Assembly: GCF_019263595.1 (NCBI RefSeq)
Contig: NZ_JADQDD010000001.1
Coordinates: 1 to 64,000, forward strand
Source: Pseudonocardia sp. KRD291
Lineage (GTDB): Bacteria > Actinomycetota > Actinomycetes > Mycobacteriales > Pseudonocardiaceae
DNA: 64,000 bases
Direction of reading: 5' to 3'
Below the pieces are notes generated by a model. That model searched no databases. It saw nothing but the letters and a program-made list of their open reading frames with translations, and was not told where the DNA came from. Position numbers and translations under genes: made by a program. This document shows, in pieces, positions 4,648 to 44,979 of the stretch (the first letter of the stretch is position 1; each line of letters starts with the position of its first letter).

Positions 4648-4740
4648 AGAGCACCTCAGACCATCCGTTTCAGACTATTGAACAGAGAGTACTGCGATGC
4701 GCTCGAATCGAACACTTACCGCCGCTCGGTCGAGGCGGAG

Positions 4741-5553: not shown

Positions 5554-5554
5554 G

Positions 5555-7530: not shown

Positions 7531-7547
7531 GGGGTTCCGCTCCTCAC

Positions 7548-8360: not shown

Positions 8361-8412
8361 CGGTTGTATCTCCTCGATCTCGGTGGTGCACGGATACCGC
8401 GGTCCGCGCGCG

Positions 8413-9270: not shown

Positions 9271-9309
9271 GGGGGCTCCTTCCTCGGTCGGTGTCGTCGC
9301 GGCTGGGGG

Positions 9310-10502: not shown

Positions 10503-10514
10503 GACGGTCTCCGA

Positions 10515-12182
10515 TCAGAAGAAGTAGACGTTGAGGCCGACGACGATCGCCAGCACGCCGGTGCTGAGCACCCACGGACGTTTGAACCAGGTGGGTTCGT
10601 GGCCCGGGCGGCGGTCGAGCAGGCTCCAGACCAGGCCCTGCAGCCGCTGGTCGGGCAGCCGGTCGCGCCGGGTCAGCAGCGACACCGCGACCGTGAGCGC
10701 CACCGAGATCACGAAGCCCCACCACGCCAGCCAGAGGTCTGCGCCGAGCTCGCTGCCCAGGTCGAGCAGGTCGGCCCGGTAGAGGCCGTAGAGGACCAGG
10801 TAGCCGACCAGCCCGCCGACGAGCCCGGCGAAGCCGCCCCACGGGGTGCTGCCCTTCCAGAACACGCCGAGCAGGAAGATCGCGAACGGTGGCACCAGGA
10901 ACAGCCCGTTCAGCAGCTGCAGGTAGCTGATGATGTTGGTGAAGTTCAGGACGATGTAGGCCGCGCCGATCGACACCATGACCCCGGCCACGGTGGCGAC
11001 CCGCCCGACGAGCAGGTAGTGCCGGTCCGAGGCGTCGCGCTTGAAGTAGGTCCGGTAGATGTCGTAGGTGAAGATCGTGTTGAACGCGGTGACGCCGCCG
11101 GCCATGCCGCTCATGAACGAGGCCATCAGCGCCACCAGCCCGAGTCCGAGCAGCCCGGTGGGCAGGTAGTAGGCCATCGTGTAGGGCACGGCCATGTTGA
11201 AGGAGTTCTCGATCCCGCCGCCCTGGCCGAGCCCGGGCACGATCATCAGCGCGAGCAGCCCGGGGAACAGGGCCAGCGCGCCGAGCAGGATCTTCGGGTA
11301 GGCGCCGATGATCGGGGTCCGCTTGGACGCGGCCTCGTTCTCCGCGGCCAGCGCGCGCTGCACCACCAGGAAGTCGGTGCAGTAGTAGCTGAAGCTGATC
11401 GCGAACCCGATGCCGAGACCGATCACGAACCACTGCACCCCGTAGGGGTTGTCGGTGGACCCGGTGTAGGCCCAGATGTGGAAGAAGCTGTCCGGCCGGT
11501 CCAGCTTGGCCTGCAGGCCCTGCCAGCCGCCGACGTGCACCAGGCCGAAGATCAGCAGCGGGACCAGGCCGAGGGTCATCAGGAAGAACTGCAGGGTCTC
11601 GTTGTAGATCGAGGAGGACAGCCCGCCCAGCGCGGTGTAGATCAGCACGATGACGCCAGCCAGCACGATCGACTGGGTGAAGCCCCAGCCGAGCAGCAGG
11701 TTGAACACCAGCGCCATCGCGTACATGTTGATCCCGCTGTTGAGCAGGACGAACAGGGCGAAGGTGATCGCGTTGAAGCCGCGGGTGGACTCGTTGTAGC
11801 GCGCCCGGAAGTAGCCGGGCACCGAGTGGATCCGGTTGCGGTAGTAGAAGGGCATCATGAACAGGCCCATGAACAGCATGCCGCCGACGCCGCCGAACCA
11901 CAGGAACACGGCCTGCATGAAGCCGTACTGGGCGGTGCCCGCCGCCTGCCCGAGCACCTCCAGCGCGCCCACGTTCGCGCCCACGTAGGCCAGGCCGGTG
12001 ACCCAGCTGGGCATGTTGCGGGCGGAGAGCAGGTAGTCCTCGGAGGTGTTCACCCGCTTGCGCAGCACCGCGCCGATGCCGAGCACGAAGACGAAGTAGA
12101 TCGTGATGATGCTGTAGTCGAGCCAGGTCACGTCCACGAACACCGGTAGGGCCTGTGCCGCGGCGGGTACGGGATGGGTCAT
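10515..12182 (-). CDS. Sodium:solute symporter family (SSS) transporter
   Basis: 555 aa with about 13-14 hydrophobic segments covering the whole length. Family features include TSEDYLLSARNMPSW after TM1, the ALGGLSSSIYNE segment of TM5, and YYCTDFLVVQRALAA, which resembles the SGLT-type substrate site of sugar/inositol symporters. It is embedded between an OYE/FAD oxidoreductase (16-base gap) and the small membrane protein. Context suggests uptake of a sugar, cyclitol or glycoside. The substrate is not proven. Confidence 0.9.
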   Translation of the reverse strand: MTHPVPAAAQALPVFVDVTWLDYSIITIYFVFVLGIGAVLRKRVNTSEDYLLSARNMPSWVTGLAYVGANVGALEVLGQAAGTAQYGFMQAVFLWFGGVGGMLFMGLFMMPFYYRNRIHSVPGYFRARYNESTRGFNAITFALFVLLNSGINMYAMALVFNLLLGWGFTQSIVLAGVIVLIYTALGGLSSSIYNETLQFFLMTLGLVPLLIFGLVHVGGWQGLQAKLDRPDSFFHIWAYTGSTDNPYGVQWFVIGLGIGFAISFSYYCTDFLVVQRALAAENEAASKRTPIIGAYPKILLGALALFPGLLALMIVPGLGQGGGIENSFNMAVPYTMAYYLPTGLLGLGLVALMASFMSGMAGGVTAFNTIFTYDIYRTYFKRDASDRHYLLVGRVATVAGVMVSIGAAYIVLNFTNIISYLQLLNGLFLVPPFAIFLLGVFWKGSTPWGGFAGLVGGLVGYLVLYGLYRADLLDLGSELGADLWLAWWGFVISVALTVAVSLLTRRDRLPDQRLQGLVWSLLDRRPGHEPTWFKRPWVLSTGVLAIVVGLNVYFF

Positions 12183-21543: not shown

Positions 21544-23898
21544 TCATTCCCGGATCCCTCGTTGCGGGCTCAGCACCAGTCTGCTCTCGGCGGCGGCGAG
21601 GACCGCGTCGCGCGTGTAGGCGAGCGGGAACGCGTCGCCGTCCGCCCAGGACTCCAGCTGATCCGCGTAGTGCGGCGACCGAGGGTCGCCGGACTGGCCG
21701 GGCGAGTTCAGGACCAGGGTCGAGTCCCACTCCCCCACATCGACGGCGATCCGGAAGCTGCTGCCCATCACCGCGTTGAACGTCGCATCGTGGCCGGACA
21801 GGCCGATCGTGTCGCCGCTGCCGGCGCGGGACACGGGCGGCAGCGACCGCCACTGCGGCGGCGCGTCCGGCACGTGCGTGAACACCGCGTGCCGCAGCTC
21901 GGTGCGGTGCAGCGCCCCCCACGTCCACGACGACGGGTCTTCCTCACCGAGCAGGACGGCGATCTCGGCGAGCGCCGCCCCGAGCGTCTCGTCCACACCG
22001 GCCCGCAGGAGCTCCGCGTCCGCCGGGTCGTGCCGCTCGAACAGGTCGATCATCCGCAGGTCCGGGCGGAGATCGGAGAACAGCGTGTCGGCCCGCAGGA
22101 GCCGGTGCCGGGCCGCCTTCGCCCGCTCGCCGTGCGCCCCGAGCCGCTCCAGGCACCGGTCGACCAGCCAGGGCCGCAGGTGCCGGCGCACCCAGACCTG
22201 GAAGACCAGCGCCGGACGGGAGTCGACCGCCTCCACGCCGTCCCAGGCCTGCAGCTCGGCCCACTCGTCCGCGTGCCGCACGGAGCCGCCCAGCTCGGCC
22301 AGCCCGTCGAGCAGGCGGCGGCCGTGCAGGTTGGTCGCGTCGGACTGCATGCGGACGCTGCCGGCGACGTCGATCGGATAGTCGCCGTCGAGCCAGCCGC
22401 GGAGGCGCTCGTGCCGCGCGCCGGAGTACCAGTCGGTGGTGATGGTCAGCTCGTCGTTGTCGAAGCCGTCGGGCAGGTTCTCCTGGTTCGACGTCGAGAA
22501 CCAGCCGGAGTCCGGGTTGAGTACGCCGGGAAGCTCTTCGAGCCGGGCGAACCCGTCCCACTCGAACCGGCCATCGCCGGGTACCGGCAGCGCGCCGTCC
22601 CACCCGGGCCGGCGCGGCACCAGGGCGCATCCCTGCCATCCGATGTCACCGGCGGCCGTCGCGAACACCTGGTTGGCCCCGGGAGCTCCCCAGCGGCGCA
22701 GCGCCTGCCGGAACTGCTCGGCGTCGTCCGCGTCCTGGTACTCCAGGCTCGCCAGATACGGCGCCATCCCCGGTTCGAGCCAGACGGCACGGACAGCCAC
22801 CGCCATCCGCGCGCCAGAGTCGACGTGGATGACCGGTCCATGCCGGGAGTACGTGAGCCGCAGCGTCTCCTCGCGACCGCCCGCGACGGCGGTCCGCTCC
22901 TCGAGGACGGTGAATGCCTCCCACTCGCCGCGGTAGCGGTAGCGGTGGTCGTCATCGGGGTGGAGCTCGTAGACGTAAAGGTCCTCGTGGTCGACCGGCC
23001 AGATCGTCAGACCGAACGCAACCCTCCCGTTGTGCCCGATGGACACGCCTGGCAGGTTCGGCTCCCCGGCGCCGATCACGCTCATCCCCGGCGCCTCGAG
23101 GTGCGTGAGGTAGCGCAGCGACGGCACGGTGACGGCACGGTGCGGGTCGTTCGCCAGCACGGGGCGGCCGGTGGCCGACCGTTCGGGCGAGACGACCCAG
23201 TTGTTGCTGCCCGACGGCGCCGCCGTCGTCGCCCTGGTCCCGGGAAGACCGGTGAAGTCGGCCGGGGCGAAGGCCAGGCGGTAGACGTCGAGCACCTCGT
23301 CGGTCAGGTGCGTCAGCGCGTCGGCATCCGGTACGACGAGGTCGGAGTGCGGGTCCCGCACCGACCGGAGCTCCTCGGCCGCGACGCCGAGGTCGCGGAC
23401 GGTGAGCGCCCGGCCGAGCTCGTGCTCGGCGTTGTAGAGCAGACCGTGCGTGCGGATCCGGACGACGTCCTCGGGCTCCCAGCGCGCCGGCTCGTGGCCG
23501 AGGGCACCGAACTCCGGGGGCAGGCGCTCGTCCGGGGCCTGCAGTGCCCAGTCGACGTAGGCGTTGACGCCGGCCACGAACGCGGAAACGACGTCCCTGG
23601 TCGCGGTGCCGTAGGCCAGCCACTCGGCCCGCATGTCACCGCGGTAGAGGAATAGCCGCGTGGCCCGGTCCTGGGCCAGGAAGCGGCTGCCGAACACCTC
23701 CGACAGCCGCCCCAGCCCGCGGCGACGCCACAGGTCGATCTGGAACAGCCGGTCGCGGGCGGCCTGGAACCCCTGGGCGACGTAGGCGTCGTGCCGGGTC
23801 GTCGCGTAGATGTGCGGGACGCCCCAGCGGTCGACGATCACCTCGACGTCGCCGTCCAGCCCGGGTAGCCGGCGGGACTCCGTCGGGATCGCGGTCAT
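21544..23898 (-). CDS. Penicillin acylase family hydrolase (Ntn-hydrolase)
   Basis: 784 aa precursor without an obvious signal peptide. The autoproteolytic junction is Gly230-Ser231 in S-G-S-N-N-W-V; Ser231 would become the N-terminal nucleophile of the beta subunit. The C-terminal block G-S-G-D-T...NSPGQSGDPRSPHYADQ is diagnostic. Family members cleave amides such as beta-lactam side chains, acyl-homoserine lactones or other N-acyl compounds. It stands apart from other intact genes, downstream of a frameshifted deacetylase on the same strand. The substrate is unknown; quorum-signal degradation is one possibility. Confidence 0.9.
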   Translation of the reverse strand: MTAIPTESRRLPGLDGDVEVIVDRWGVPHIYATTRHDAYVAQGFQAARDRLFQIDLWRRRGLGRLSEVFGSRFLAQDRATRLFLYRGDMRAEWLAYGTATRDVVSAFVAGVNAYVDWALQAPDERLPPEFGALGHEPARWEPEDVVRIRTHGLLYNAEHELGRALTVRDLGVAAEELRSVRDPHSDLVVPDADALTHLTDEVLDVYRLAFAPADFTGLPGTRATTAAPSGSNNWVVSPERSATGRPVLANDPHRAVTVPSLRYLTHLEAPGMSVIGAGEPNLPGVSIGHNGRVAFGLTIWPVDHEDLYVYELHPDDDHRYRYRGEWEAFTVLEERTAVAGGREETLRLTYSRHGPVIHVDSGARMAVAVRAVWLEPGMAPYLASLEYQDADDAEQFRQALRRWGAPGANQVFATAAGDIGWQGCALVPRRPGWDGALPVPGDGRFEWDGFARLEELPGVLNPDSGWFSTSNQENLPDGFDNDELTITTDWYSGARHERLRGWLDGDYPIDVAGSVRMQSDATNLHGRRLLDGLAELGGSVRHADEWAELQAWDGVEAVDSRPALVFQVWVRRHLRPWLVDRCLERLGAHGERAKAARHRLLRADTLFSDLRPDLRMIDLFERHDPADAELLRAGVDETLGAALAEIAVLLGEEDPSSWTWGALHRTELRHAVFTHVPDAPPQWRSLPPVSRAGSGDTIGLSGHDATFNAVMGSSFRIAVDVGEWDSTLVLNSPGQSGDPRSPHYADQLESWADGDAFPLAYTRDAVLAAAESRLVLSPQRGIRE

Positions 23899-25634: not shown

Positions 25635-25943
25635 GTGCCCAAGCCGTTCCCGACCGAGTTCCGCCGCGATGTGGTCGCGGTCGCCCGCCAGGGCGACCAG
25701 TCGATCGCTCAGGTCGCCCGAAGCTTCGGAGTCTCGGAGTCCTGCCTGTCGCGCTGGCTGCGCATCGCCGACCGCGAGGACGGCATCGAGCCTGGCGAGT
25801 CAGCCCCTGCTGGGCCGACGGCCGGGACGGACCTCGAAGCGGAGAACCGTGAGCTGCGCAGGCGGACGAAGCAGCTCGAGCAGGAGAACGAGATCCTGCG
25901 CCGCGCGACCGCCTACTTCGCCCGCGACGTCCTCCCAAAATGA
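25635..25943 (+). CDS. IS3 transposase OrfA
   Basis: 102 aa. An N-terminal HTH (FRRDVVAVARQGDQSIAQVARSFGVSESCLSRWL) is followed by a leucine-zipper-like coiled coil at about 65-92 (LEAENRELRRRTKQLEQEN). GTG start with GGAAGGA upstream. The last codons are CCA-AAA-TGA. The run AAAA allows a -1 slip into orfB, and the orfB ATG also overlaps this stop. Confidence 0.92.
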   Translation: MPKPFPTEFRRDVVAVARQGDQSIAQVARSFGVSESCLSRWLRIADREDGIEPGESAPAGPTAGTDLEAENRELRRRTKQLEQENEILRRATAYFARDVLPK

Positions 25944-26806
25944 TGTACCCGCTGGTCCTCGACCTCGCCGACGACAAGATCCCTGTCGCGGTGACCTGCC
26001 GGGTGCTGGGCTTCTCCAAGCAGGCCTTCTACCAGTGGCGCGCCAAGCCGGTCTCCGACCGTGACTACGACGACGCGCACCTGATCAACGCCGCGTTCGA
26101 CGTCCACCACGACGACCCCGAGTTCGGCTACCGCTTCATCGCCGACGAACTCGCCACGCAGGGCCACACCGCCTCCCGGACCCGGGTCGGCAAGTTGTGC
26201 AGCCAGCAGAAGCTCTGGTCGGTCCACGCCCGCAAGCGCGGCCGCACCCGCCGGCCCGGACCACCGGTGCACGACGACCTCGTCCGCCGCGAGTTCACCG
26301 CGGCCCGCCCGAACCAGCTCTGGCTCACCGACATCACCGAACACCCCACCGGTGAGGGCAAGCTCTATCTCTGCGCAGTCAAGGATGCCTGCTCGAAGCG
26401 GATCGTGGGCTACTCAATCGACGCCCGCATGACCTCGGTGCTGGCGGTCAACGCGCTGCGCAACGCCGTGAATCAGCGAGGCTTCCTCGCGCCGACGGTG
26501 GTCCATTCCGACCGCGGCAGTCAATTTCGATCACACGCCTACCAGCGAGAACTCCGCAGAGCCCGGCTACGGGGCTCGATGGGACGGGTCGGCACCTGCG
26601 CCGACAACGCCGCGATGGAGTCGTTCTTCAGCCTGCTGCAGAAGAACGTGCTCAACCGCCGGCGCTGGAACACCCGGACCGAACTACGACTGGCGATCGT
26701 GACCTGGATCGAGACCACCTACCACCGCCGACGCAGACAGCAGAGCCTCGGTCGGCTGACTCCGGTCGAGTTCGAGACACTGCACAACACCGCCCACGCG
26801 GCCTGA
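25940..26806 (+). CDS. IS3 transposase OrfB (DDE integrase domain)
   Basis: 288 aa. The HTH_21-like N-terminus is followed by an rve core with catalytic D131 (WLTDITEH), D191 (VVHSDRGSQF) and E227 (NAAMESFFS), giving the D-35-E spacing of the family. It is produced either by translational coupling at the ATGA overlap or as an OrfAB fusion by -1 frameshift. It is intact from end to end. Confidence 0.95.
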   Translation: MMYPLVLDLADDKIPVAVTCRVLGFSKQAFYQWRAKPVSDRDYDDAHLINAAFDVHHDDPEFGYRFIADELATQGHTASRTRVGKLCSQQKLWSVHARKRGRTRRPGPPVHDDLVRREFTAARPNQLWLTDITEHPTGEGKLYLCAVKDACSKRIVGYSIDARMTSVLAVNALRNAVNQRGFLAPTVVHSDRGSQFRSHAYQRELRRARLRGSMGRVGTCADNAAMESFFSLLQKNVLNRRRWNTRTELRLAIVTWIETTYHRRRRQQSLGRLTPVEFETLHNTAHAA

Positions 26807-29476: not shown

Positions 29477-30478
29477 TCATCTCCCCCGCTGGGACGCCGG
29501 TCGGGGTGTCGCGGCGCGACGGGCGTGGTCGATGGCCTCGTCGAGGCTGTGGGCGGTGCGCACACCGGCCGGCAGGTCATCGCGGGTCCACCCGGGGCCG
29601 GCCGCGATGACCGTGCTCGAGTGCGGCAACAACACCCGGAGCGTGTCGAGGTGTGCGGTCGCGGGGGCCTGCGACCAGAGCAGCACCGCGGCGGGGCGAA
29701 CGGTTTCCGCGGCATGCACGAGGGCGGGGGTGGGTACGGATGGACCGAGTGTGCGGGCCGAAAGGTGTTCTTCACCCAGGCCCGCGAGGACAGCGTCGAG
29801 GGCCAGCGTGTGCAGCTCGCCGGCCGTGCAGGCCAACAGGATGTGTCCGATGTCCGGTGGCGCGGGTGGCGGCGCGGGGAGACGGTGCAGGCTGGTGGTG
29901 ATCGCCCAGACCAGAACACACTCGGCGTCCACGGACGCCGTCGGATGCAGACTTGCACCCGAGGTCCCGCCTGGGACGTCGGGAACCTCGGCGTTGAGCG
30001 CGGTGTATGTAAGGGCCGGCCGACACAACTGATTCCAGGTGCTCACGACTCCGCGGCGGGTGAAACCGGCCTGTAGTGCCCGTACAGCGGAGTCGGCGTC
30101 GAGACGGCGGACGGCGCGGATCAGCGCGCTGAGCTCGTCGGGCGAGACGTCGTCGAGGTTTTCGGGTCCTTTCGACGTCACGGAGACGGTTTCGGCACGG
30201 TAGTGCTCGGTATCGCGGTGTCGGTCGCGGGCGATCGAGGCCGCGGTCGCCATCGGCACTCCCTCGCGGTGCAGGCGGCGCATCATGTCCAGCTCGGCGA
30301 CGTCGAGGCTGGAGTAGCGGCGGTACCGACCGGCCTGGTGCCCGGGCGGGCCTACCCCGTAGCGGGCCCCCCAGCTGCGCAGCGTCGCCGGCGACACTCC
30401 GAGCCGGCGCGCCACCGCGGCCGCGGTCCACACCGGCGGGGACGGGTCGTCCGCCTCGGCGCCGGCTGGTCTGGTCAC
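29477..30478 (-). CDS. MerR family regulator with B12-binding-like domain (LitR/CarH-like)
   Basis: 333 aa from GTG 30478. The MerR HTH is at about 15-80 (VWTAAAVARRLGVSPATLRSWGARYGVG). A helical bundle at about 110-200 and a Rossmann-like domain at about 210-333 follow, arranged as in LitR/CarH adenosyl-B12 photoreceptors. The lower-ligand motif E-x-H-x2-G appears as E221-L-H223-T-L-A. The upper Trp...Glu-His motif is not seen: it reads D-A-E-C near 186. Cobalamin binding is therefore possible but unproven. It is divergent from whiB and upstream of tspO. A decayed paralogue is at 52044. Confidence 0.8.
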   Translation of the reverse strand: MTRPAGAEADDPSPPVWTAAAVARRLGVSPATLRSWGARYGVGPPGHQAGRYRRYSSLDVAELDMMRRLHREGVPMATAASIARDRHRDTEHYRAETVSVTSKGPENLDDVSPDELSALIRAVRRLDADSAVRALQAGFTRRGVVSTWNQLCRPALTYTALNAEVPDVPGGTSGASLHPTASVDAECVLVWAITTSLHRLPAPPPAPPDIGHILLACTAGELHTLALDAVLAGLGEEHLSARTLGPSVPTPALVHAAETVRPAAVLLWSQAPATAHLDTLRVLLPHSSTVIAAGPGWTRDDLPAGVRTAHSLDEAIDHARRAATPRPASQRGR

Positions 30479-30587
30479 GACCCCATGCTGACCCACCGAC
30501 GACCGAACTGCCCATCTCGCCGCTCGAGTGGCAGGTTCGCAACGGTTGTGCCACGGTTTCGGTAAGTGCATAACGGAGGTGTTCGCG

Positions 30588-30956
30588 ATGGCCTACACGG
30601 TTCGGTTACCGGATCCGGTAACCGGCGAGTGGGACTGGCAGCTTCAAGCCGCATGTCGCGGGATGGACCTCGCCGCGTTCTTTCACCCGCCCGGCGAGCG
30701 TGGACCGGCGTGGCGGCGCCGCGAGGAGCAGGCCAAGCAGGTCTGCGCCGGTTGCCCGGTTGCGCAGGAGTGTCTGGAGTACTCGTTGCGGATCGAGGAG
30801 CCCTTCGGGACCTGGGGCGGTGTGGGCGAGCGCGAACGCTGGAACATGGTGCAGCAGCGACGCGCACGGCGCCCCCGCCTGCGAAGCACGACATCGTCGC
30901 AGGTACGCGCCATGACGTGTGATGATCGGAAGGACCGAGATGAGTCGAGAAGCTGA
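30588..30956 (+). CDS. WhiB family iron-sulfur transcriptional regulator (1)
   Basis: 122 aa from ATG 30588, behind CGGAGGT. The four cluster cysteines are C23, C53, C56 and C62 (A-A-C-R-G; V-C-A-G-C; E-C-L-E), followed by the G-x-W-G-G turn and a basic C-terminus. WhiB proteins bind [4Fe-4S] and partner sigma factors in redox or developmental control. The first 40 codons contain a 22-base perfect palindrome. Its stop lies downstream of the start of the DUF4383 gene, so they overlap by 17 bases. Confidence 0.93.
   Translation: MAYTVRLPDPVTGEWDWQLQAACRGMDLAAFFHPPGERGPAWRRREEQAKQVCAGCPVAQECLEYSLRIEEPFGTWGGVGERERWNMVQQRRARRPRLRSTTSSQVRAMTCDDRKDRDESRS
30603..30624. promoter_or_regulatory. 22-base perfect palindrome inside the whiB 5' coding region
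   Basis: Arm CGGTTACCGGA (30603-30613) is followed without spacer by its exact reverse complement TCCGGTAACCG (30614-30624), starting 15 bases after the whiB ATG. A dyad this long is unlikely by chance. It could be a roadblock-type operator, or an mRNA hairpin over the early codons. Confidence 0.6.
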
Positions 30957-31638
30957 GGGTGACCGGCAACAGACGCCGCCGAGGCACGATGTGGCCGGCG
31001 GCGGCACCCTTGGATGGCTGCACCGCATAGCTGGGTTCGTGCTCGGGCTGGGGTTGTGGGTGTTCGGGCTGTTGGGGTTCGTCAACAGGCTGGAGTTCTT
31101 CGCCACCAGCGGGCCGCCGGTACTCGGACTGTCTTCCAATGGGCTGCTCTCGGCGATCTCGGTGGTGTTCGGCACGATCCTGATCGTCGCCGCCGTCCGT
31201 GGCGGTCGCCTGGCCTCGACGACCAGCGTCGTGGTCGGCGCGCTGTTCATGGCTTCCGGAGTCCTCAACGTCCTCGTGTTGGCGACCCCGTTCAACGTGT
31301 TGTCGTTCCGGATGTCCAACGTCGTGTTCAGCCTCGTGGCCGGCGCGTTGCTACTGGTACTGGGCGCCTACGGCCGATTCACCGGCCGCCTGCCCGACAG
31401 CAGCCCCTATCACCGCGTCGCCCACGGCGGCCCGGTCGACGCACAACACAGCAGCGACAACGACCAGCAGACCCCCACAGATCGCGCCGACGCGACCGCC
31501 GCCCGTGAACTGGCTGAGGCTGAGCGGGCCAGCGCCGGCGGAGGAGGCACTGCAGAACAGAGAGATATTCTCTCCCAGGTCGGAGGCAGCCGCGACGCCG
31601 CGGGCCGGCGAGCGATCTGGCGGCGCCTGACCGAATGA
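30940..31638 (+). CDS. DUF4383 domain membrane protein (1)
   Basis: 232 aa from ATG 30940, behind GGAAGGA. It has four hydrophobic helices between about residues 28 and 155, the DUF4383 arrangement (LHRIAGFVLGLGLWVFGLLGF; FSLVAGALLLVLGAYGRFTG). A hydrophilic C-terminal tail contains A-E-L-A-E-A-E-R-A. Function unknown; the family is common in stress-type actinobacterial loci. It is clearly paralogous to 49269-50075, including the tail motif, and overlaps the whiB 3' end. Confidence 0.85.
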   Translation: MSREAEGDRQQTPPRHDVAGGGTLGWLHRIAGFVLGLGLWVFGLLGFVNRLEFFATSGPPVLGLSSNGLLSAISVVFGTILIVAAVRGGRLASTTSVVVGALFMASGVLNVLVLATPFNVLSFRMSNVVFSLVAGALLLVLGAYGRFTGRLPDSSPYHRVAHGGPVDAQHSSDNDQQTPTDRADATAARELAEAERASAGGGGTAEQRDILSQVGGSRDAAGRRAIWRRLTE

Positions 31639-31932: not shown

Positions 31933-33021
31933 TCACTGCATCGACGTTGCGGAGTCGACACATGATCGGAACAGGTCGGGCAAAGTGATGTCGGCGGCTT
32001 CGGCCATCATGGTGATGACGCTGGTGGGTGCGAACGAGCAGTAGAGGCCTGCTTCGAGGAACCAGGGACGTCCGTCCGGGTCGATCCGGAAGTCGAACAG
32101 GCCGTACTGGCGGCAGCCCAATGCCGTGTAACAGGCTCGGGCTGCTTCCCAGACGGGCGCGGTCACCGGGTCGGTGGGGTCGACGATCCATGCCCGTTCG
32201 CCATCCTTGGCCATCAGGCGCAGGTCGCCGTCGCTGCTACGGGCGAGCTTGTCGTCGTAGCCGCGGATCGGCTTCGACGCGGCGTCCATCGCGTACTCCT
32301 CGAGCGGTAGGCACACCAGATCTCCGCCGTATTCGATCAGGCCGCACCGCACTTCGCGGCCCAGCTCGACGTAGCGTTCGACGAGTGCGGTGCGCGAGTG
32401 CCGGAACGCTTCGGACAGGGCAGGCTCGTAGTCCTCAGGTGAGCGCACCAGGGTCACGCCGGAGGAGTTGTCGGCGTCCGCAGGCTTCACGACGACGGGA
32501 CCTGCGATCGTCGGTGTCTGTCCCGGCCGCAGCAGCTCCGCGTGGGGGACGTGGACACCGGCTGCCGCGACGAGAGTTCTGGCCCGGTGCTTGTCCACCG
32601 ACAGTGCGGTCGCGTCCGGGGTGTTGCCGAGATAGGGGACACCGAGCACGTCGAACAGGGCCCGGTAGTTGGTCATCCCGGGTCGACAGAACATCTGCGG
32701 GACCATGACGTCCGGTTCCAGCTCCGTGATCCTGCGGATCGCGTCGCCGGCGGTCACCGGGGCCGCTGTGTCGAGTACCTGCGGGTCGAGGGAGGCGGGG
32801 AACCTCCAGCGGCCGTCGGGACTCACGTGGGCGATGTGGGTCTCGTAGTGGTCCGGGTCGGCGGTGGCGGTCAGGCAGCCCCGGGCGTAGAGCAGTGACA
32901 GGTCGGCGAGCTCGTCGGAGACTGCCGAGCCGGTGAGATGCAAAACCCGTCGGCTCGAGGTTGCTTGTCCGGCCGGAGCCTGGAGCGTGTCGACGGGTCC
33001 TCCGGGTCGGTACGTCCGCAT
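31933..33021 (-). CDS. mysD: MysD, D-Ala-D-Ala ligase-like mycosporine ligase
   Basis: 362 aa ATP-grasp enzyme with D-Ala-D-Ala-ligase features: GNTPDATALSVDKHRAR, VVKPADADNSSGVTLV and the C-terminal Mg-binding FLEAGLYCSF. In known mycosporine pathways MysD condenses mycosporine-glycine with a second amino acid (Ser, Thr or Ala) to an imino-mycosporine such as shinorine. Identification rests on this family plus its place as last gene of a complete mysA-mysB-mysC-mysD order. It abuts mysC with no gap. Which amino acid it uses cannot be read from sequence. Confidence 0.88.
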   Translation of the reverse strand: MRTYRPGGPVDTLQAPAGQATSSRRVLHLTGSAVSDELADLSLLYARGCLTATADPDHYETHIAHVSPDGRWRFPASLDPQVLDTAAPVTAGDAIRRITELEPDVMVPQMFCRPGMTNYRALFDVLGVPYLGNTPDATALSVDKHRARTLVAAAGVHVPHAELLRPGQTPTIAGPVVVKPADADNSSGVTLVRSPEDYEPALSEAFRHSRTALVERYVELGREVRCGLIEYGGDLVCLPLEEYAMDAASKPIRGYDDKLARSSDGDLRLMAKDGERAWIVDPTDPVTAPVWEAARACYTALGCRQYGLFDFRIDPDGRPWFLEAGLYCSFAPTSVITMMAEAADITLPDLFRSCVDSATSMQ

Positions 33022-34317
33022 CTAGTCCCCCGCCGGTTCGACGATCTTGCCGATGTTGAAGTCGATCCGTACCCAGTCCGAGCCGCGGCGCAGGGCCCGC
33101 AGCAGCAGCCACGGGATCTGCAGGTGGTGCACGAGCAGGAACGGCAGCGGGTCGGCGGCCGAGAGGATGGCGTCGGTCCCGTTGATGATGGTGCGCAGCC
33201 GCGCGGCGCGGTCCGGCCCGGTGAGCAGCCGCCATAGTTCGTGGTAGATCCAGTAGGTCGGGCGGCTGGACGCCGAAGGAGTCACGGTCGGTGAGCTGCC
33301 GTGCAGGTAGGCGTCGGCGACGCCCGGGTGGTCGTGGAACATCGTGATCGCCGAGTGGGTGCGCGGGTTGCACTCGATCGCGTAGACCCGCCCGTCGTCG
33401 GCTTCGATGAAGTCGAACGAGAGCTGTCCGGTGACGCCGAGCTCGCCGACGAAGTGCCGTACCCACTTCTCGATGTCCGGCCGGTCCAGGTGCGCGTAGT
33501 TCACCTGGAACGACGACGACACACAGCACCCGTGCAGCGTCACTTCACCGTCGCGCACGGTGCTGTGCGTGCAGAACTCCTGACCGCGCACGAACTCCTG
33601 CAGGATCCAGGGGTTCTGCGCCGAGATCGGCAGCGACCGCGCGAACGCCTCGGTCTGGGCGGGCGTCGGGCGTGGGAGCGGGGTGAGGTCGAGGCGGCGT
33701 ACCGGGTCGTAGGCGATGCTCTTGAGGACGAACGTCCGGCCCGGGCGCGCGGCGAAGTCGAAGGTCGTGACCTGGGCGGGGTCGGTGATCCGGTGCGTCT
33801 CGGGCACGTCGAGCCCGAACGAGGCGGCGGTCGCGGCGAAGGCGTCCTTGTCGTCGAGCAGGCCGATCACATCGGGCCCGGGGTGCAGCACCTCGCAGTG
33901 TGGCTCCAGCAGCGGCTTCGCGTGGGCGTCAGCGACGCTGGAGGCCGGGCTGCACACGGGGACGTAGACGTCGACGCCCTCAGACTGCACGATCGTCAGC
34001 AGCGCCTCGACGTAGCGGGGGTCGGAAGGCTCCGGCACGGTGTGGAACCGGTCCACCGCACGGGAGAACCGGTGCCCGGTGATCCGGTAGCGCGACGACT
34101 CGACCAGCACGACGCGGTGACCAGCCTGGTGGAACGCGCGGGCCAGCGCCAGTGCCTTGGTCATCTTCCCGCCGCTGAGCAGGATCGTGCGCGGTTCGGC
34201 CACCGGCGTCGGTGTCGCGACGGGGCGCCGTAGCCACGCCAGCGCGGTGACGGCGGCGTTGAGCGGGAGCGCGGCGGTCAGCAGCGCGATCGTGGCCAGT
34301 GTGCGTGCGCGTGTCAT
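33022..34317 (-). CDS. mysC: MysC, ATP-grasp ligase (mycosporine-glycine synthase)
   Basis: 431 aa. An N-terminal hydrophobic helix at about 8-28 may anchor it. Then come a pre-ATP-grasp domain (ILLSGGKMTKALALARAFHQAG), ATP-grasp core (FVLKSIAYDPVRRLDL; ILQEFVRGQEF) and the metal-binding VYAIECNPRTHSAI. In cyanobacteria and actinomycetes MysC activates 4-deoxygadusol and adds glycine to make mycosporine-glycine. It is contiguous with mysB and mysD. Confidence 0.92.
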   Translation of the reverse strand: MTRARTLATIALLTAALPLNAAVTALAWLRRPVATPTPVAEPRTILLSGGKMTKALALARAFHQAGHRVVLVESSRYRITGHRFSRAVDRFHTVPEPSDPRYVEALLTIVQSEGVDVYVPVCSPASSVADAHAKPLLEPHCEVLHPGPDVIGLLDDKDAFAATAASFGLDVPETHRITDPAQVTTFDFAARPGRTFVLKSIAYDPVRRLDLTPLPRPTPAQTEAFARSLPISAQNPWILQEFVRGQEFCTHSTVRDGEVTLHGCCVSSSFQVNYAHLDRPDIEKWVRHFVGELGVTGQLSFDFIEADDGRVYAIECNPRTHSAITMFHDHPGVADAYLHGSSPTVTPSASSRPTYWIYHELWRLLTGPDRAARLRTIINGTDAILSAADPLPFLLVHHLQIPWLLLRALRRGSDWVRIDFNIGKIVEPAGD

Positions 34318-35109
34318 CTAGACCTGCCGAATCAGGGTCAGGCCGTCGCGCAACGGCAACACCACCTGTTCCACCCGCGGGTCGTGGGCCACGGCCCGGT
34401 TGAACGCCGCGATCGCCGCGCCGTTCGAACTGGCTTCCGCGCCGCTCCACGGTTCGCCCTGCATCAGGGTGTTGTCCACGCAGATCAGCGCGTCGGATGC
34501 CAGCAGGCCGGTCGTGAGCAGCAGCTCGAGGTAGTCGGCGTAGCCGCCCTTGTCCGCGTCGATGAACACGAGGTCGAACGACTCACCGGCGTCGGCGAGC
34601 TCGTGCAGCGTCTGCGTGGCCGGCCCCAGGCGGATCGAGATCCGGGCGCCGGCCTCGGAGGGCGCGAAGCTTGATCGGGCCAGTTCAGCGACGTCCGCGT
34701 CGATCTCACACGCAGTCACGGTGCCACCGGTCGGCAGGGCCTCGGCCATCGCCAGCGCGGAGTAGCCGGTGAACATGCCGATCTCCAGAACCCGCCGGGC
34801 CCGGGTGGCGTGCACGAGAAACGCCAGGGTCCGGCCCTCGACATGCCCGGAGAGCATCTCCTGCTCGAGTGGGCCCGAGCCCCAGCTGTGGGTACGCGTG
34901 CGCTCCGCCAACGCCCGCAGCGCCGCCGATTCCGGCGTGGTGCACGCGGCCACGTAGGGGTCCAGACCGCCGATCAGTGCGGCGACTGCTCGCGCCTCGG
35001 CGCCGGCGTCGCCGTCGAGCCGCTCGGCGAGACGGTGCAGCCGCTCGGCCGCGATCGTCACCGGCGTGACCGGGCGCGCCGGCCGGACCCCCGACCGGGC
35101 GAAACTCAC
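34318..35109 (-). CDS. mysB: MysB, O-methyltransferase
   Basis: 263 aa SAM-dependent methyltransferase of the caffeoyl-CoA-OMT-like class. The SAM site is [29 protein letters not shown] follows, and [15 protein letters not shown] holds the metal/catalytic Asp and Lys. In the mys pathway it methylates demethyl-4-deoxygadusol to 4-deoxygadusol. GTG start 35109 overlaps the mysA stop by four bases. Confidence 0.92.
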
Positions 35110-36323
35110 GCCGCCTCCGCCGGGGCGTAGACGTCGATACCCTCACCGGCGCGAGGCAGCGCACCCACGAGGTCCTTGTGCGCGGCCAGTGCCTGTTCCA
35201 GCTCGGTCGCGGTGAGGTCGTTGATGAAGTGGCAGGTGCCGATCGGGCGGGGCACCGCCGCGCGCAACAGCCCGCCGCGGGTCTGCACGATCGACTCGGT
35301 AGCTCGCGCCAGGAGCCCCGAGGTCAGGTAGGAGCTGTCCAGCGATAGCCCCAGCCGGCTCATCACGCCGTGGATCCGGTCCCGGCTGCGGGCGGTGATG
35401 TAGTTGCGGCGCTCGGCGACTGTCGCCGACAGGGCCATGTCGACGCTGATCGCGTGGCCGTGGAACATCGGCACGTCCGGTGCCAGCTCGAGTGTCGGGC
35501 TCCACGTGTGCCCGTAGGCGATCTCGCGGTCGAGGTCGAGTTCGTGCAGGTTCGGCACCTCGAGTTCGAGCATGGTCTGCACCGCGTCGTAGGTGAACTT
35601 GTGCGCCAGCTCGCGCAGCTCACGGCTGCCGCCCTCACCGTGGCCGAACCCGGTGGCCATCAGCTCCTCACCGTGCTCCTCGATCAGGTCGAACGTTGCG
35701 CTGTTCGCGACGACCGAGATCTTGATCAGTTCGGCCATGCCGTTGCGGACCTGGTCGAGCGGGAGCGTGGCCAGCAGCGTCGGGTCGAGGATCACCATCT
35801 GGGAGGCGTGGTAGGCGCCGATGCGGTTCTTGCTCTTTCCGTGGTTGACCGCGACCTTGATCGCGACACTGGCGTCGACCTGCCCGATCACCGTCGTCGG
35901 AACGCGGATGTAGGGGGTGCCGCGGCGAAACGATGCGCAGGCGAAACCAGCGACATCGGTGGTCAGCCCGCCGCCTACGACGAGTACCGGCTCGGTGCGG
36001 ACGAGGCCGAACTCGCCGAACGCGTCGATGATCCGCTCCACCGTGTGCAGGCTCTTCGCGGTCTCCGCGATCTGCACTCCGAACACGGTCAGGTCGATAC
36101 CGTGGCGGGCGAAGTAGTGCCGGATCCGGTCCCCGTGCAGGCCCAGGACTTTCTCGTCGACGACCATCAGGCAACGCCCGTAGGGCCGGTAGGCGTCGGC
36201 CAGCTCGGCGTGGGCCGGGTCGAACGCTCCGTCGACGTAGACCAGGCTGAAGTCGATCTTTTCGTAGCCTTCGACGTGGAAGGCTCGCTCGGTCGCCGAG
36301 ACGCTCGCGTGGGGGTGGCTCAT
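35106..36323 (-). CDS. mysA: MysA, 2-demethyl-4-deoxygadusol synthase
   Basis: 405 aa sugar-phosphate cyclase of the dehydroquinate-synthase superfamily. It converts sedoheptulose 7-phosphate to demethyl-4-deoxygadusol using NAD and a metal. [21 protein letters not shown] is the NAD-site block. The segment [21 protein letters not shown] matches DDG synthases rather than valiolone synthases as I recall those motifs. First of the four contiguous mys genes and 22 bases after the HAD-like gene. Confidence 0.92.
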
Positions 36324-36345
36324 GTGCAGTCTCCGGTTCGGTCGA

Positions 36346-37005
36346 TCAGGCGTGGGGCAGGTGGGCGAGCAGCGCCGGATACTCGAGCCGGTCGACCCGC
36401 TCGTCTGCGGCGCCGAAGTCGTGGCCCGAGGTGTTGGCGTTGGGGAAGGCGACGCACGTGATGCCGGCTTCGCGTGCGGCGTCGACGCCGCCGACGTTGT
36501 CCTCGATCGCGACGCAGGCCTCGGCGGACTCGCCGAGCTGCTCGAGCGCGAAGATGTAGGCCGCGCCGTCCGGCTTGGGCTTGTCGACCTGAGTGGAGTC
36601 CACGACGAGGTCGAATCCCTCGTCGAGCGCCAGCGCCTCGATCACGGCCGCGACGTTCTCCGGCGACGTGGTGGTCACCAGCGCCACCCGCTGGCCGTTG
36701 CGGCGCGCGGCGGAGATCGTCTCGACGACGCCCGACCTCGGTGACAGCGGGTTCTCCCGCACCAAACGGCGGAACCACTCGGACTTCGTCCGGTGTACTG
36801 CGTCCGCGTCGACGTCGGCGCTCGCGGAGCGGGCGAACTCGGCGATCCGGTCGCGGCCCCCGTTGCTCGAGAGCATGTCCACGTACTGTTCGCGGTCCCA
36901 GCGCCAGCCGAGCCCGTGGTCGTCGAAGGCGTGGTTGAACGCCTCGCGCTGGATCTCGGAGGTGTCTGCGACCGTGCTGATGGACCCGAAGAGAATGGCA
37001 GGCAT
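36346..37005 (-). CDS. HAD-like (CbbY-type) protein lacking the catalytic aspartates
   Basis: 219 aa from ATG 37005 behind GGGAG. The overall order is that of a CbbY-type phosphatase: helical cap, motif II ([10 protein letters not shown]), motif III Lys ([16 protein letters not shown]) and motif IV ([16 protein letters not shown]). Motif I, normally F-D-x-D-G-T, reads F6-G7-S8-I9-S10-T11, so the nucleophile and the second Asp are both absent. Phosphatase activity is therefore unlikely. It opens the mys operon. It could be a structural, regulatory or substrate-binding partner. I have a faint recollection of a HAD subgroup with this variant, which could not be checked. Confidence 0.85.
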
Positions 37006-37116
37006 AGATACTCCCGGTAGTAGTGAACACTGAAGCTCGTACTGAACGTCATACCCGAAAGCCGACAGCTCGAACACTACTGAACCATATGTTCAGAAGA
37101 TTGTGGAGGTGAGTCC
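37006..37116. promoter_or_regulatory. Divergent mys/TetR promoter with palindromic operator
   Basis: CTGAAC at 37080-37085 and GTTCAG at 37091-37096 form a perfect six-base inverted repeat around CATAT. Further TGAAC copies lie at 37024 and 37043, toward the mys operon start. The AT-rich island sits between the HAD-like gene start (37005) and the TetR start (37117). It is the likely binding site by which the TetR protein controls the mys operon. Confidence 0.65.
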
Positions 37117-37683
37117 GTGTCCTCGCAGGCAGATGACCGCACGGACCCGCGCGTGGCACGCACACGGCAGGACGTCCCCCGCGCCGCCTACCGGATCCTC
37201 GTGGAGCAGGGCGCGGACGCGGTGACACATGCACACGTCGCCCGAGCCGCCGGCTACTCGAAGGCGACGCTCTACGCGCACTGGCCCACCCGGGCGGACC
37301 TTCTGCACGCCGCGCTGTCGCTGATGGCCGAGGTCGACCATGCCGCGGTCACCGGCGAGCCACGCGCCGACCTGATCGGCCAGATGTCCGGATTCCGGTC
37401 CATGATCCACGAACACGGCACCGACCGGGCACTCGGCGCTATGGCCCAGCTCGGCGCAGCCACACCGGAGCTGGCCGACCTGCGCGACCGGGTCGCGGCC
37501 GAAGGAGAGCGAGTGATGCGCGAGGTGCTCGCCGGTATCACCGCCGACGACGAGCTGGAGGCCGTCGCGTTGATGCTCAACGGCGCCGTGCTCTACGCCG
37601 CCATGCTGCACCGACAGCCACCGGACGACGACACGATCGCCACGATCGTCGACATCGTCCTACGCGGACTGAGCCCGAACTGA
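37117..37683 (+). CDS. TetR family regulator, probable mys operon regulator
   Basis: 188 aa from GTG 37117, preceded by GGAGGTGAG. The HTH is about 18-62 (AAYRILVEQGADAVTHAHVARAAGYSKATLYAHW), and the helical C-terminal domain ends LRGLSPN. Divergent from the mys operon with one shared palindromic site; control of sunscreen production is inferred from that. The stop is one base from the convergent TauD stop. Confidence 0.88.
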   Translation: MSSQADDRTDPRVARTRQDVPRAAYRILVEQGADAVTHAHVARAAGYSKATLYAHWPTRADLLHAALSLMAEVDHAAVTGEPRADLIGQMSGFRSMIHEHGTDRALGAMAQLGAATPELADLRDRVAAEGERVMREVLAGITADDELEAVALMLNGAVLYAAMLHRQPPDDDTIATIVDIVLRGLSPN

Positions 37684-37684
37684 C

Positions 37685-38470
37685 CTACGCCGCGGCCGGC
37701 ACGTCGGTACCGGCGACCATCCCCCTGTGCATGACACGGTCACCCATGACGTCGTCGTGGTCGGCACGGTGCAACACACAGGCGTTGTCCCAGATCACGA
37801 CGTCGCCCGGCGACCAGGCGTGTCGGAACACGTTGCCCTCCGCCGTCGAGTGCGCGAACAGCTCCGCGACCGTCTCCGCGGACTCCTCCGGTGTCATCCC
37901 GCTCACCGCCACGCAGCGGGTCGGCGTGGACAGGTAGAGCGCAGCGCGCCCGGAGACCGGGTGCCGGCGGAACACCGGATGCTCGGCAGCGGTCTCGGCG
38001 CTGTCGCCGGGATCGACACCGGTCACCACATGGGTGATGGTCCGCCCATCCAAGCGCTCGCGAAGCTCGGGCGGCAGCGTGTCGTAGGCCCGGTACTGGT
38101 TCGTGAACAGCGTCTCCCCGCCGCGCGCCGGGATCTCCACCGCTCGCAGCGACGTGTAGGCCGGTGGCCGGCGCACATAGCTGGTGTCCACGTGGAAGGT
38201 GCTGCGCGGGGGCACCGTGCGGCCGACGTTGCTCACGACGTTGAGATCCGGGAAGTCCTCGACGGGCGTCTCCCCAACCGTGAACGTGAGGTCGCCGAAC
38301 CCGCGCAGGAACTCGACGAACGCACCATCGTCGATGGGCTGCTCCGGCAGCACGAGCACACCGTGCTCCCCGAGGAGGCCCCGGATGCGCTCGATCATCT
38401 CGGGTGCGGGATTGCGCAGCGACACCCCGGTCACTGTCGCCCCGACCGGTTCGTGGACCACTGTCTGCAT
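37685..38470 (-). CDS. TauD/TfdA family Fe(II)/2-oxoglutarate dioxygenase
   Basis: 261 aa from ATG 38470. The iron triad is H93-x-D95 (TFHVDTSY) and H234 (CVLHRAD). R249 (MHRGM) would bind 2-oxoglutarate. An in-frame upstream extension to 38587 runs through an IS256 fragment and is unlikely to be native. Family members hydroxylate or cleave small molecules. Its closeness to the mys operon invites a tailoring role, but known mycosporine oxygenases (MysH) belong, as I recall, to a different 2OG-oxygenase group. Confidence 0.88.
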   Translation of the reverse strand: MQTVVHEPVGATVTGVSLRNPAPEMIERIRGLLGEHGVLVLPEQPIDDGAFVEFLRGFGDLTFTVGETPVEDFPDLNVVSNVGRTVPPRSTFHVDTSYVRRPPAYTSLRAVEIPARGGETLFTNQYRAYDTLPPELRERLDGRTITHVVTGVDPGDSAETAAEHPVFRRHPVSGRAALYLSTPTRCVAVSGMTPEESAETVAELFAHSTAEGNVFRHAWSPGDVVIWDNACVLHRADHDDVMGDRVMHRGMVAGTDVPAAA

Positions 38471-39192
38471 GCTTCGAAGGCTAGGGGCCGTCGTATCGAA
38501 TCGCGCGCCGTCTCGAGGAGCTCGTCGATCGCCGCACACGGCGTCGGCCCCGGCGGACATGAGCGTGCCGATGAACGTGGTCAACATCTGTCGGAGCAGG
38601 TCAGGACTCTCGCCTGGGACAGCTGCTCGTGCAGGAACTGGGTGGCTGTCGATGCTGAAGGGCCGCGGTCATCGCGTGTCGTCCTTCGAGAAGCACTGTG
38701 AGAGGTCTTCAAGAAGACACGCGATGGCCGACCTACACCTCGACGCCACGCCCGTCACCGGGCTGGTCGCCCACCACCTTGGCGGACGCCACTATGCCCT
38801 AGCCGCAGCATCGCAACTGGCCCCTCAAGTGAGCGAGCCGGCCGTGTCCGGCCCCGCGTCGCCGGAAGCGGATAGGGCAACTGGGAGCGACGTATCATGA
38901 CTCCATCTCCTCAGAAGATCAAGTCTCCGGACACGCCGGGCGGTTCATGGGGCAACTCGGCAACACGTAGTCGCAGCATCCACCGCCCCATAGGTGACGG
39001 GTACAGCAGCTGTCGCGTACTGCACGTGCGCCAGTCGAAGCTGCGCCGTGCGTCTGGCTGCGGCTTGCCGTTCTCGCGCTCGGCACGAGTGGTCGACGCT
39101 CAAGGGCAGAGGTCCGTCACAAGCTTGAGAGCTGCAGCGCGGGAATGTGCTTGCATCGACGCTTCCCGCGGGCGGGCCGTATCTTGATCGGC
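38471..39192. other. 720-base gene-poor stretch with IS256 relic
   Basis: It contains the IS256 transposase fragment (separate entry). Downstream, an open frame from ATG 38724 (M-A-D-L-H-L-D-A-T-P-V) on the plus strand lacks a recognisable RBS and family. Nothing else is supported up to the GAF-ANTAR start. Confidence 0.55.
38528..38650 (-). pseudogene. IS256 family transposase, N-terminal fragment
   Basis: Minus-strand reading E-S-P-D-L-L-R-Q-M-L-T-T-F-I-G at 38611 downward, continuing L-M-S-A-G-A-D-A-V-C-G-D, matches the conserved N-terminus of IS256/mutator transposases of actinobacteria. The expected G-Y-G-E-x-S...NG-Y-R part is missing, and the frame upstream is shifted. The fragment is in frame with the TauD gene downstream. 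Confidence 0.65.
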
Positions 39193-39915
39193 GTGTCAGT
39201 ATCCGAGCCCGAGTACCTCGCGGACGCCTTCGCCGCCGTCGCCCGCGAGATGCAGGCCGCCACTTGCCCCGAGGAGACACGACTGGTGGTGACCCGCCGC
39301 GCGGTCGAGATGGTGCCGGGTTGTACCTACGCCGGGATAACCCTGGTGCAGCGGCGTGGATCGCTCACCAGCGTCGCACCCACCAGCGAGGTCGCCGACC
39401 GAATCCACGCCATCCAGAACGAGCTCGGCGAAGGCCCGTGCCTGAGCTCGATCCACGACCACATCGTCTACACCGTCGACGACCTGCGCCAGGACGAGCG
39501 CTGGCCCCGGTTCGCCCGCCGCGTCGCCGCGGAGCTCCCCGTCGCGAGCATGCTCGCCTTCCGGTTGTTCACCTCCGAGGAGACCACCGGTGCCCTGGAC
39601 CTGTACTCGGACACCCCGGCCGCGTTCGACGCGCACTCGCGCGCGATCGGAACCGTGCTGGCCGCGCACGCCGCCATCGCCATGGTCGCCGCACGCGAGC
39701 GCGAGAACGCCGACAACCTCGAGGCCGCGCTGCACAACAGCCGACAGATCGGCATCGCCATCGGCATCCTGATGCGTAGTGAGAGCCTCACCCAAGATCA
39801 GGCGTTCGATTTCCTGGTCAACGTCTCGCAGCGGCTCAACCGCAAGCTGCGCACCGTCGCCGGTGTCATCGTGGAGGCGGGAGGAGTGTCGGGCGACCTG
39901 ACCGCCAGTTCGTGA
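39193..39915 (+). CDS. GAF and ANTAR domain regulator (1)
   Basis: 240 aa from GTG 39193. The GAF domain spans about 20-165 (PGCTYAGITLVQRRGS; LGEGPCLSSIHDH). The ANTAR RNA-binding domain spans about 175-230 (LHNSRQIGIAIGILMRSESLTQDQAFDFLVNVSQRLNRKL). ANTAR proteins act as antiterminators by binding twin RNA hairpins; here the sensor is GAF. It stands alone. It is paralogous to 44140-44979. Confidence 0.9.
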   Translation: MSVSEPEYLADAFAAVAREMQAATCPEETRLVVTRRAVEMVPGCTYAGITLVQRRGSLTSVAPTSEVADRIHAIQNELGEGPCLSSIHDHIVYTVDDLRQDERWPRFARRVAAELPVASMLAFRLFTSEETTGALDLYSDTPAAFDAHSRAIGTVLAAHAAIAMVAARERENADNLEAALHNSRQIGIAIGILMRSESLTQDQAFDFLVNVSQRLNRKLRTVAGVIVEAGGVSGDLTASS

Positions 39916-44139: not shown

Positions 44140-44979
44140 GTGGTGGACATGTCCAGCGAAGCTGATTGGCGCCGGGACCGGGACGACTGGATCGCCGCTG
44201 ACGCCGGACCTGAGCAGGCAGCCGCGACCGACGAGTCCGTCTTCTCCGCGGCTCGGCTCCCGGCCGACACCGGTCCGCTGGCCGAGCAGTTCGCCGAGCT
44301 TGCTCAGACACTGTTGGTCGCCGACACCGTGTCCGACGTTCTACACCAAGTGGTCCACGCCACCCGCGAGATCACCCCAGGCTGTGACCTGGCCAGCGTT
44401 ACCCTCCGTCGGCCTGAGGGCGGCTTCACGACTCCGGTCTACACCGACGCACTGGCCGAGCAGATCGACCAGGTCCAGTATGACGCCGACGAGGGCCCGT
44501 GCGTGGACGCCACCCGAGCCGAGGGACTCGGTATCGCCTGGTGCGCCGACCTCCACGGCGACACCGAGCACTGGCCGAGGTTCAGCCCCGGCGCCGCGCA
44601 GTTGGGCATGGGCGCCCTGCTCGGTGTGGGCATGTTCCCCCGGGGCGACCCGCCACGGTTGGGCGCCCTCAACATCTACTCCACCCGCCGGCACGGCCTC
44701 GACAGCACTGATCGCGACATCGCACTGATCCTGGCCTCACACGCCTCAGTGGCCTTGTCTCGCGCCATGGATGTCAGCGCCGCTCAACTCGAAGCCACCC
44801 AGCTGACGGAGGCGCTGCACAGCCGCGACGTCATCGGTCAGGCCAAGGGGATCCTGATGGAGCGACGCGGCATCGACGCAGGCGAAGCATTCGACGTTCT
44901 GCGTCGCGCCTCCCAGGACCTCAACGTCAAGGTCTCCGAGATAGCCCACACCCTTACCTCTCGTCGCGCTGAACTGTGA
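44140..44979 (+). CDS. GAF and ANTAR domain regulator (2)
   Basis: 276-279 aa; GTG 44140 or 44143, or ATG 44149, are all possible starts. The GAF domain is about 55-200 (PGCDLASVTLRRPEGG; DEGPCVDATRAEG). The ANTAR domain is about 215-275 (LHSRDVIGQAKGILMERRGIDAGEAFDVLRRASQDLNVKVSEIA). It is a probable RNA-binding antiterminator responding to a redox or small-molecule cue. Convergent with the STAS gene downstream. Confidence 0.9.
   Translation: MVDMSSEADWRRDRDDWIAADAGPEQAAATDESVFSAARLPADTGPLAEQFAELAQTLLVADTVSDVLHQVVHATREITPGCDLASVTLRRPEGGFTTPVYTDALAEQIDQVQYDADEGPCVDATRAEGLGIAWCADLHGDTEHWPRFSPGAAQLGMGALLGVGMFPRGDPPRLGALNIYSTRRHGLDSTDRDIALILASHASVALSRAMDVSAAQLEATQLTEALHSRDVIGQAKGILMERRGIDAGEAFDVLRRASQDLNVKVSEIAHTLTSRRAEL

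Follow-up and report, generated by a model that had tools for sequence, protein, structure and literature searches.

The question raised by the locus described here is what a phosphatase-like protein without its catalytic nucleophile does at the head of an operon for sunscreen biosynthesis. The DNA analyzed comprises positions 1-64,000 of contig NZ_JADQDD010000001.1 from Pseudonocardia sp. KRD291, 64,000 nucleotides that we call the window and to which the coordinates below refer. On its minus strand a gene for a protein of the HAD fold is followed by mysA, mysB, mysC, and mysD, a complete mysABCD set for the synthesis of mycosporine-like amino acids (MAAs), and these genes are accompanied by a TetR-family regulator gene and a gene for a dioxygenase of the TauD/TfdA type (TauD). 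We consider it highly probable that the locus is an MAA operon of the kind known from actinobacteria with HAD and TauD, and that its HAD protein is of a non-phosphatase kind.

The closest solved relative of the HAD protein is CbbY (36-37% identity), which has been described as a xylulose-1,5-bisphosphate phosphatase (PMC10212915). An AlphaFold model of the window protein (mean pLDDT 95.7) gave CbbY as the top Foldseek match with a TM of 0.90, and in VIA-align the model superimposed on CbbY structure 4uar with a Z of 30.0 and a root-mean-square deviation of 1.9 over 214 residues, the best non-CbbY chain reaching a Z of 24.5. The fold is CbbY-like with a C1 cap, and much of the CbbY-like cap is retained. 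The residues of motifs II, III, and IV that a phosphatase of this type carries are all present, but the nucleophilic aspartate of motif I is not. The CbbY motif is DxD (the structure sequence compared being that of a D10N mutant), whereas motif I of the window protein reads Gly-Ser-Ile. Because Gly and Ile stand in place of the two motif I aspartates, the protein is, judged from its sequence, very unlikely to act as a phosphatase. HADs from 78 mys-linked loci, including the window and four near-duplicates, were aligned, and Gly7-Ser8 was found in 77/77 of those reaching motif I, with GS(I/L)(S/G) as the motif I pattern. Thr111 (motif II), Thr113, Lys144 (motif III), and Glu168 (motif IV) were invariant in the same 77/77, and Asp169 was kept in 99% of the mys-linked sequences. 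The invariant columns number 39, and the CbbY residue is present in 24 of them.

For comparison we used samples of 397 genomes from the order, 396 from the phylum, and 292 from the cyanobacteria, with locus stretches of 20 kb. The motif I aspartate was present in 31 of 33 comparison HADs, three of which came from the order sample and 30 from the cyanobacterial sample (30 of 57 places found in that search were read for motif I). The two without it were L194, which is 32% identical to the window HAD and has no mys genes near it within the 20 kb read, and L184, a repeat of the mys-linked protein from Drouetiella. In the phylum sample the aspartate is kept in 6/6 homologues with 35-39% identity; it is absent from a HAD on a Roseobacter litoralis plasmid that is 41.5% identical and whose gene is flanked on each side by 10 kb without an annotated mys gene. 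These nucleophile-less cousins outside the mys loci (GSIGT...ETSE.QR) are located at 9354-10055 of L194/L214 (G462) and at 9989-10660 of L215 (Roseobacter litoralis pROLI81), and their neighbours are a glgC-like gene for one and potassium uptake genes for the other.

A tree built from 53 HADs joined the proteins lacking the nucleophile in one clade (support 100/99), in which the mys-linked ones were a nested clade (99/99), and L194 stood on a very long branch. The HAD of G188, a genome of the same genus as the window, paired with that of Pseudonocardia pini (100/100). Seven cyanobacterial HADs made up a clade (100/99) among actinobacterial rows, the surrounding forks having weak to fair support. 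Since the MysA proteins of four such HAD-bearing cyanobacteria group with cyanobacterial MysA (98/95), the trees suggest that the HAD may have reached these cyanobacteria separately from MysA. For the HAD, seven close pairs gave ratios of non-synonymous to synonymous substitution rates (dN/dS) of 0.04-0.16, and the pair of the window and Pseudonocardia endophytica, which is more distant, gave 0.35, with MysA values mostly below those of the HAD; by this measure the HAD is under purifying selection. It is conceivable, although we hold it somewhat doubtful, that the mys-linked HADs constitute a dedicated nucleophile-less family (GS[IL][SG]) with an unrecognised non-phosphatase step or a scaffolding function in sunscreen biosynthesis, which would have passed from actinobacteria to some cyanobacteria and would have cousins outside the mys loci on the Roseobacter plasmid and in one cyanobacterium.

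How closely the HAD follows the mys genes was read from the same samples. A close MysA (at least 61% identity) was present in 29/397 genomes of the order sample and a close HAD (at least 53%) in 27/397; all 27 HAD genomes were among the 29 MysA genomes, and the HAD gene was on the same contig and adjoined mysA in 27/27. The MysA genomes without a close HAD were Actinosynnema mirum (G083) and G150. Seven of the 396 genomes in the phylum sample, two of them shared with the order sample, carry a close HAD, and in each of them its operon includes mysB and mysC; among the 292 cyanobacterial genomes no close HAD was found except in the centre genome G405 itself. When 105 distinct loci found through MysA were compared, some of them cut by contig ends, 63 had both HAD and TauD (counted at 120 bits or more to the window TauD), 11 had HAD alone, 31 had neither, and none had TauD alone. 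The HAD gene immediately precedes mysA on its 5' side in 67/73 loci, and the six exceptions are all cyanobacterial. HAD was found in 8 and TauD in 6 of the 37 cyanobacterial loci, and the two adjoin each other in several of these clusters (L063-L067, L072); the HAD-bearing loci L064 and L067 come from records not titled as metagenome-assembled genomes (MAGs). For the HAD-only loci, no mys-type TauD was found elsewhere in the nine genomes tested, the best match having 35% identity. The other two HAD-only loci, L126 and L135, are cut by contig ends, and the absence of TauD is weak in at least L076 and L130, which are MAGs. By eye, and with no domain search made, no recurring replacement tailoring gene was seen in the open reading frames of 6 of the 11 HAD-only loci.

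A tie of the HAD only to cyclases of the 2-demethyl-4-deoxygadusol synthase (DDGS) type was considered and rejected, because in G937 and G801 the HAD gene belongs to mysBCD-TauD operons whose cyclase is divergent. This cyclase is 36-38% identical to the window MysA and joins the MysA side of the tree (91/99, with a long-branch warning). The constant partners of the HAD are mysB and mysC, for TauD is not always there and the class of the cyclase may vary. The two MAA operons (L234 in G937, 4694-11327; L235 in G801, 4984-12127) contain HAD, mysB, mysC, mysD, and TauD, and their cyclase, which carries a PSPRTCCDGFG(Y/F)KN stretch, possibly represents another class of sugar phosphate cyclase in the MAA pathway. 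Separately, L084 (CAJCIY010000017.1), titled Candidatus Melainabacteria, is the same stretch as L033; the contig also occurs in G005, from the order of the window, its genes group with actinobacterial ones, and the Melainabacteria title looks wrong.

With regard to function, the reading that we favour, although we hold it to be somewhat less likely than not, makes the HAD an accessory that binds without hydrolysing. Its ligand would be a ketose in phosphorylated form or some phosphorylated intermediate of the pathway, and the protein would help the core enzymes through delivery, protection, or control of flux. Retained despite the loss of the motif I aspartates, the Thr and Lys that bind phosphate and the motif IV Glu are consistent with such a role. 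Weighing against it, the core runs without a HAD in published hosts, both as mysABC (PMC11284840) and as mysABCD (PMC10384724), Actinosynnema mirum and G150 carry no HAD, and 29/37 cyanobacterial loci are without it. As the core works without the HAD, and as these two genomes lack it, any help it gives is not essential.

The main competitor, which we regard as unlikely, is a catalytically active HAD that works by an unconventional mechanism, for instance through Ser8 or with assistance from the substrate, and modifies MAAs or compounds that precede them, together with TauD or before it. This reading would account for the replacement itself being invariant (Gly7-Ser8 in 77/77), as if selected, for TauD of the window type never being found without the HAD (0/63 TauD loci), and for the two genes adjoining in the cyanobacterial clusters mentioned above. 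However, the HAD persists in the 11 loci without TauD, 9 of these genomes having no mys-type TauD elsewhere, and we know of no reaction established for the family without the motif I aspartate. Rather improbable in our estimate is a HAD acting as the sensor of a sugar phosphate, through which MysA, TetR, or expression would be modulated from outside the pathway: it is the first gene of the operon, adjoins the TetR gene here, and retains the phosphate-binding residues, but a TetR of the window type (at least 100 bits) was present near only 27/74 HAD loci, and the HAD is therefore not bound to this regulator. That it is a vestigial phosphatase without function, as the loss of the nucleophile might indicate, is hardly credible for a monophyletic, widely conserved protein with low dN/dS and invariant pocket residues.

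The HAD gene leads a complete set of mys genes (Table 1). A preliminary description of this DNA had presented mysA-mysB-mysC-mysD as contiguous, led by a HAD-like gene and faced by a TetR gene, with the TauD gene convergent to the latter, and the coordinates bear this out. Within 31933-36323 there is a 4-base overlap between mysA and mysB, and the mysB/mysC and mysC/mysD junctions have zero gap; the TetR gene faces the HAD gene over an intergenic span of 111 bases. The arrangement is not due to chance, because dozens of other genomes carry the identical gene set. The nearest locus found, in Pseudonocardia endophytica DSM 44969 (L062), has an identical architecture and a MysA that is 85% identical. 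This locus and the pairing of the G188 HAD would by themselves make Pseudonocardia the very probable genus of the host. The HAD start was placed at the ATG at 37005, with GGGAG upstream, and an open reading frame at 36320-37030 was rejected as the HAD gene since it is in a different frame. For TauD the longest open reading frame starts at 38587 and the gene ends at 37685; judged from where the homology begins, Met40 at 38470 is the likelier start. MysC had no Pfam match over the cut-off, and passed that of NCBIfam PRK06849 ('hypothetical protein') with 449 bits against 406.

Table 1 Features of the MAA locus in the window of Pseudonocardia sp. KRD291.
Feature	Position	Strand	Description
mysD	31933-33021	-	ATP-grasp ligase, D-Ala-D-Ala ligase type, 362 aa; Pfam Dala_Dala_lig_C 64.1 bits
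mysC	33022-34317	-	ATP-grasp enzyme, 431 aa; NCBIfam PRK06849 449 bits
mysB	34318-35109	-	O-methyltransferase, 263 aa; Pfam Methyltransf_3 158.8 bits
mysA	35106-36323	-	Sugar phosphate cyclase, DDGS clade, 405 aa; Pfam DHQ_synthase 113.6 bits
HAD gene	36346-37005	-	CbbY-like HAD fold without motif I aspartates, 219 aa; Pfam Hydrolase 84.9 bits
Codons of HAD residues 6-9 (Phe-Gly-Ser-Ile)	36979-36990	-	Lost-nucleophile site; counted from the ATG at 37005
Candidate TetR operator TGAACATATGGTTCA	37081-37095		Matches the pattern TGRAC-N5-GTYCA
TetR-family regulator gene	37117-37683	+	Divergent from the operon, 188 aa; Pfam TetR_N 46.2 bits
TauD gene	37685-38470	-	TauD/TfdA-type Fe(II)/2-oxoglutarate dioxygenase, HVD motif; Pfam TauD 197 bits

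In phmmer, MysA scored 545 bits to 5tpr, 255 to 4p53, and at most 120 to the other 14 chains, which are mostly 3-dehydroquinate (DHQ) synthases. We take 5tpr to be DDGS (the structure of a cyanobacterial synthase) and 4p53 to be the valiolone synthase ValA; the printed descriptions of these entries are '3-dehydroquinate synthase' and 'Cyclase'. In a midpoint-rooted tree of 34 proteins the window MysA, 28 relatives, and 5tpr formed one clade (99/95), inside which the Actinosynnema mirum MysA (L051) falls, and outside which stand a pair of ValA and L032 (94/90) and two DHQ synthases. The earlier proposal of an actinobacterial mycosporine operon, against which a grouping of MysA with valiolone or DHQ synthases had been named as counterevidence, is supported by this placement. 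A second protein with a DHQ synthase domain is encoded on another contig of the genome and is likely its AroB. Although the DHQ synthase superfamily includes MysA, an operon that makes a cyclitol of the valiolone type or supplies the shikimate pathway is most improbable, given the clade of MysA, the adjoining mysB-mysC-mysD, and the separate AroB, and the phmmer scores and tree led us to reject a valiolone or shikimate reading of MysA.

If the established pathway is followed, MysA would convert sedoheptulose 7-phosphate to 2-demethyl-4-deoxygadusol, MysB would methylate this to 4-deoxygadusol, MysC would add glycine to form mycosporine-glycine, and MysD would add a second amino acid to give a product of the shinorine type; TauD would probably oxidise an amino-acid arm, with palythine-type products as the result. 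In Streptomyces albidoflavus, the mysABC genes of Rhodococcus fascians by themselves yielded mycosporine-glycine (PMC11284840) and the mysABCD genes of Actinosynnema mirum are listed with shinorine in yeast (PMC10384724), and we count the MAA output of these related operons in favour of an MAA operon. Small amounts of MAAs accumulated in Pseudonocardia sp. P1 according to a review (PMC10384724). A point against is that the Actinosynnema mirum cluster in its own host gave no MAA in culture (PMC10384724), and the presence of the genes therefore does not prove the product. Turning to the TauD protein, the HxD metal motif is HVD in the window and was found in 35/36 mys-linked rows, the remaining row being a fragment. 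Six cyanobacterial TauDs formed one clade (99/100) in a tree whose other rows include fragments that spoil the remainder, and no TauD with more than 60% identity turned up in a plasmid search.

The TetR protein would probably repress the operon from a palindrome just upstream of the HAD gene. The pattern TGRAC-N5-GTYCA between TetR and HAD was found exactly in 15/26 homologous regions and with at most one mismatch in 22/26; 200 dinucleotide-preserving shuffles gave on average 0.03 exact matches and 0.87 with at most one mismatch, the maximum for the latter being 3. This conserved palindrome is probably the TetR operator. The pattern was derived from the same regions in which it was counted, and several of these are close relatives, some near-identical, so the figures overstate independence and count to that extent against the operator. 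A TetR gene of at least 100 bits, where present by the HAD loci, is on the opposite strand in 26 of the 27.

Light control by a CarH-like neighbour was also considered and dropped, the match being weak (38.5 bits against a cut-off of 400). The gene in question, for a MerR regulator with a weak B12-binding domain (29477-30571, minus strand), and a DUF4383 gene (30919-31638, plus strand) lie downstream of mysD. Relatives of both are found just upstream of the HAD gene in L124 (Actinomycetospora endophytica), the one other locus with a close relative of the CarH-like protein near mys genes; a weaker one occurs in L059. Two GAF-ANTAR proteins, probable antiterminator-type regulators, are encoded near the operon at 39145-39915 and 44140-44979 (both plus strand), and the window further contains a penicillin amidase family gene (21544-23898, minus strand) and an integrase-core (rve) transposase gene (25940-26806, plus strand).

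So far the HAD has figured as an MAA gene that is conserved and lacks an explanation. A classical phosphatase route that is barred, an altered motif that is conserved, and a type of TauD that was never found without the HAD raise testable questions on the diversification of actinobacterial sunscreens, and they advise caution, since family searches label this nucleophile-less protein as a HAD hydrolase. The operon type itself is already published: HAD and TauD/TfdA genes in actinobacterial MAA clusters were reported in the GATOR-GC preprint of 2025 (PMC11888242), where the clusters of Pseudonocardia alni and of Rhodococcus fascians D188 resemble the present one in combining a mysABCD-type core with HAD and TauD/TfdA. 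The preliminary view that the HAD and TetR genes are foreign to the classical pathway holds for textbook clusters, but the HAD, together with TauD, had already been described from actinobacteria in that preprint (PMC11888242). The words nucleophile, active site, motif, and pseudoenzyme are all absent from its text (PMC11888242). In the literature searched, which leaves most subscription papers outside, we noticed no mention of a nucleophile-less HAD in MAA clusters or of its conservation, and none of the TetR-HAD operator in the papers searched. The preprint also has HAD and TauD as not present in Cyanobacteriota (PMC11888242), in contrast to the 8/37 and 6/37 cyanobacterial loci found here.

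Among the known systems, the dioxygenase MysI of Nostoc sp. UHCC 0926 (PMC10510106) is, by its description, like the window TauD in belonging to the TauD/TfdA family and the MAA pathway and in the palythine-type reaction proposed for it. It differs in being reported with mysF and mysE, and MAA-linked enzymes of the TauD family in general therefore need not accompany this HAD. The MAA cluster of Actinosynnema mirum (amir_4256-4259; L051) shares mysABCD and the MysA clade with the window, but has neither HAD nor TauD in its 20 kb stretch. The HAD itself is like CbbY in its fold (Z 30), in the Thr of motif II, the Lys of motif III, and the Glu of motif IV, and in many cap residues; it differs in having Gly and Ile in place of the motif I aspartates, and in being encoded by genes that are linked to mys and not to the Calvin cycle.

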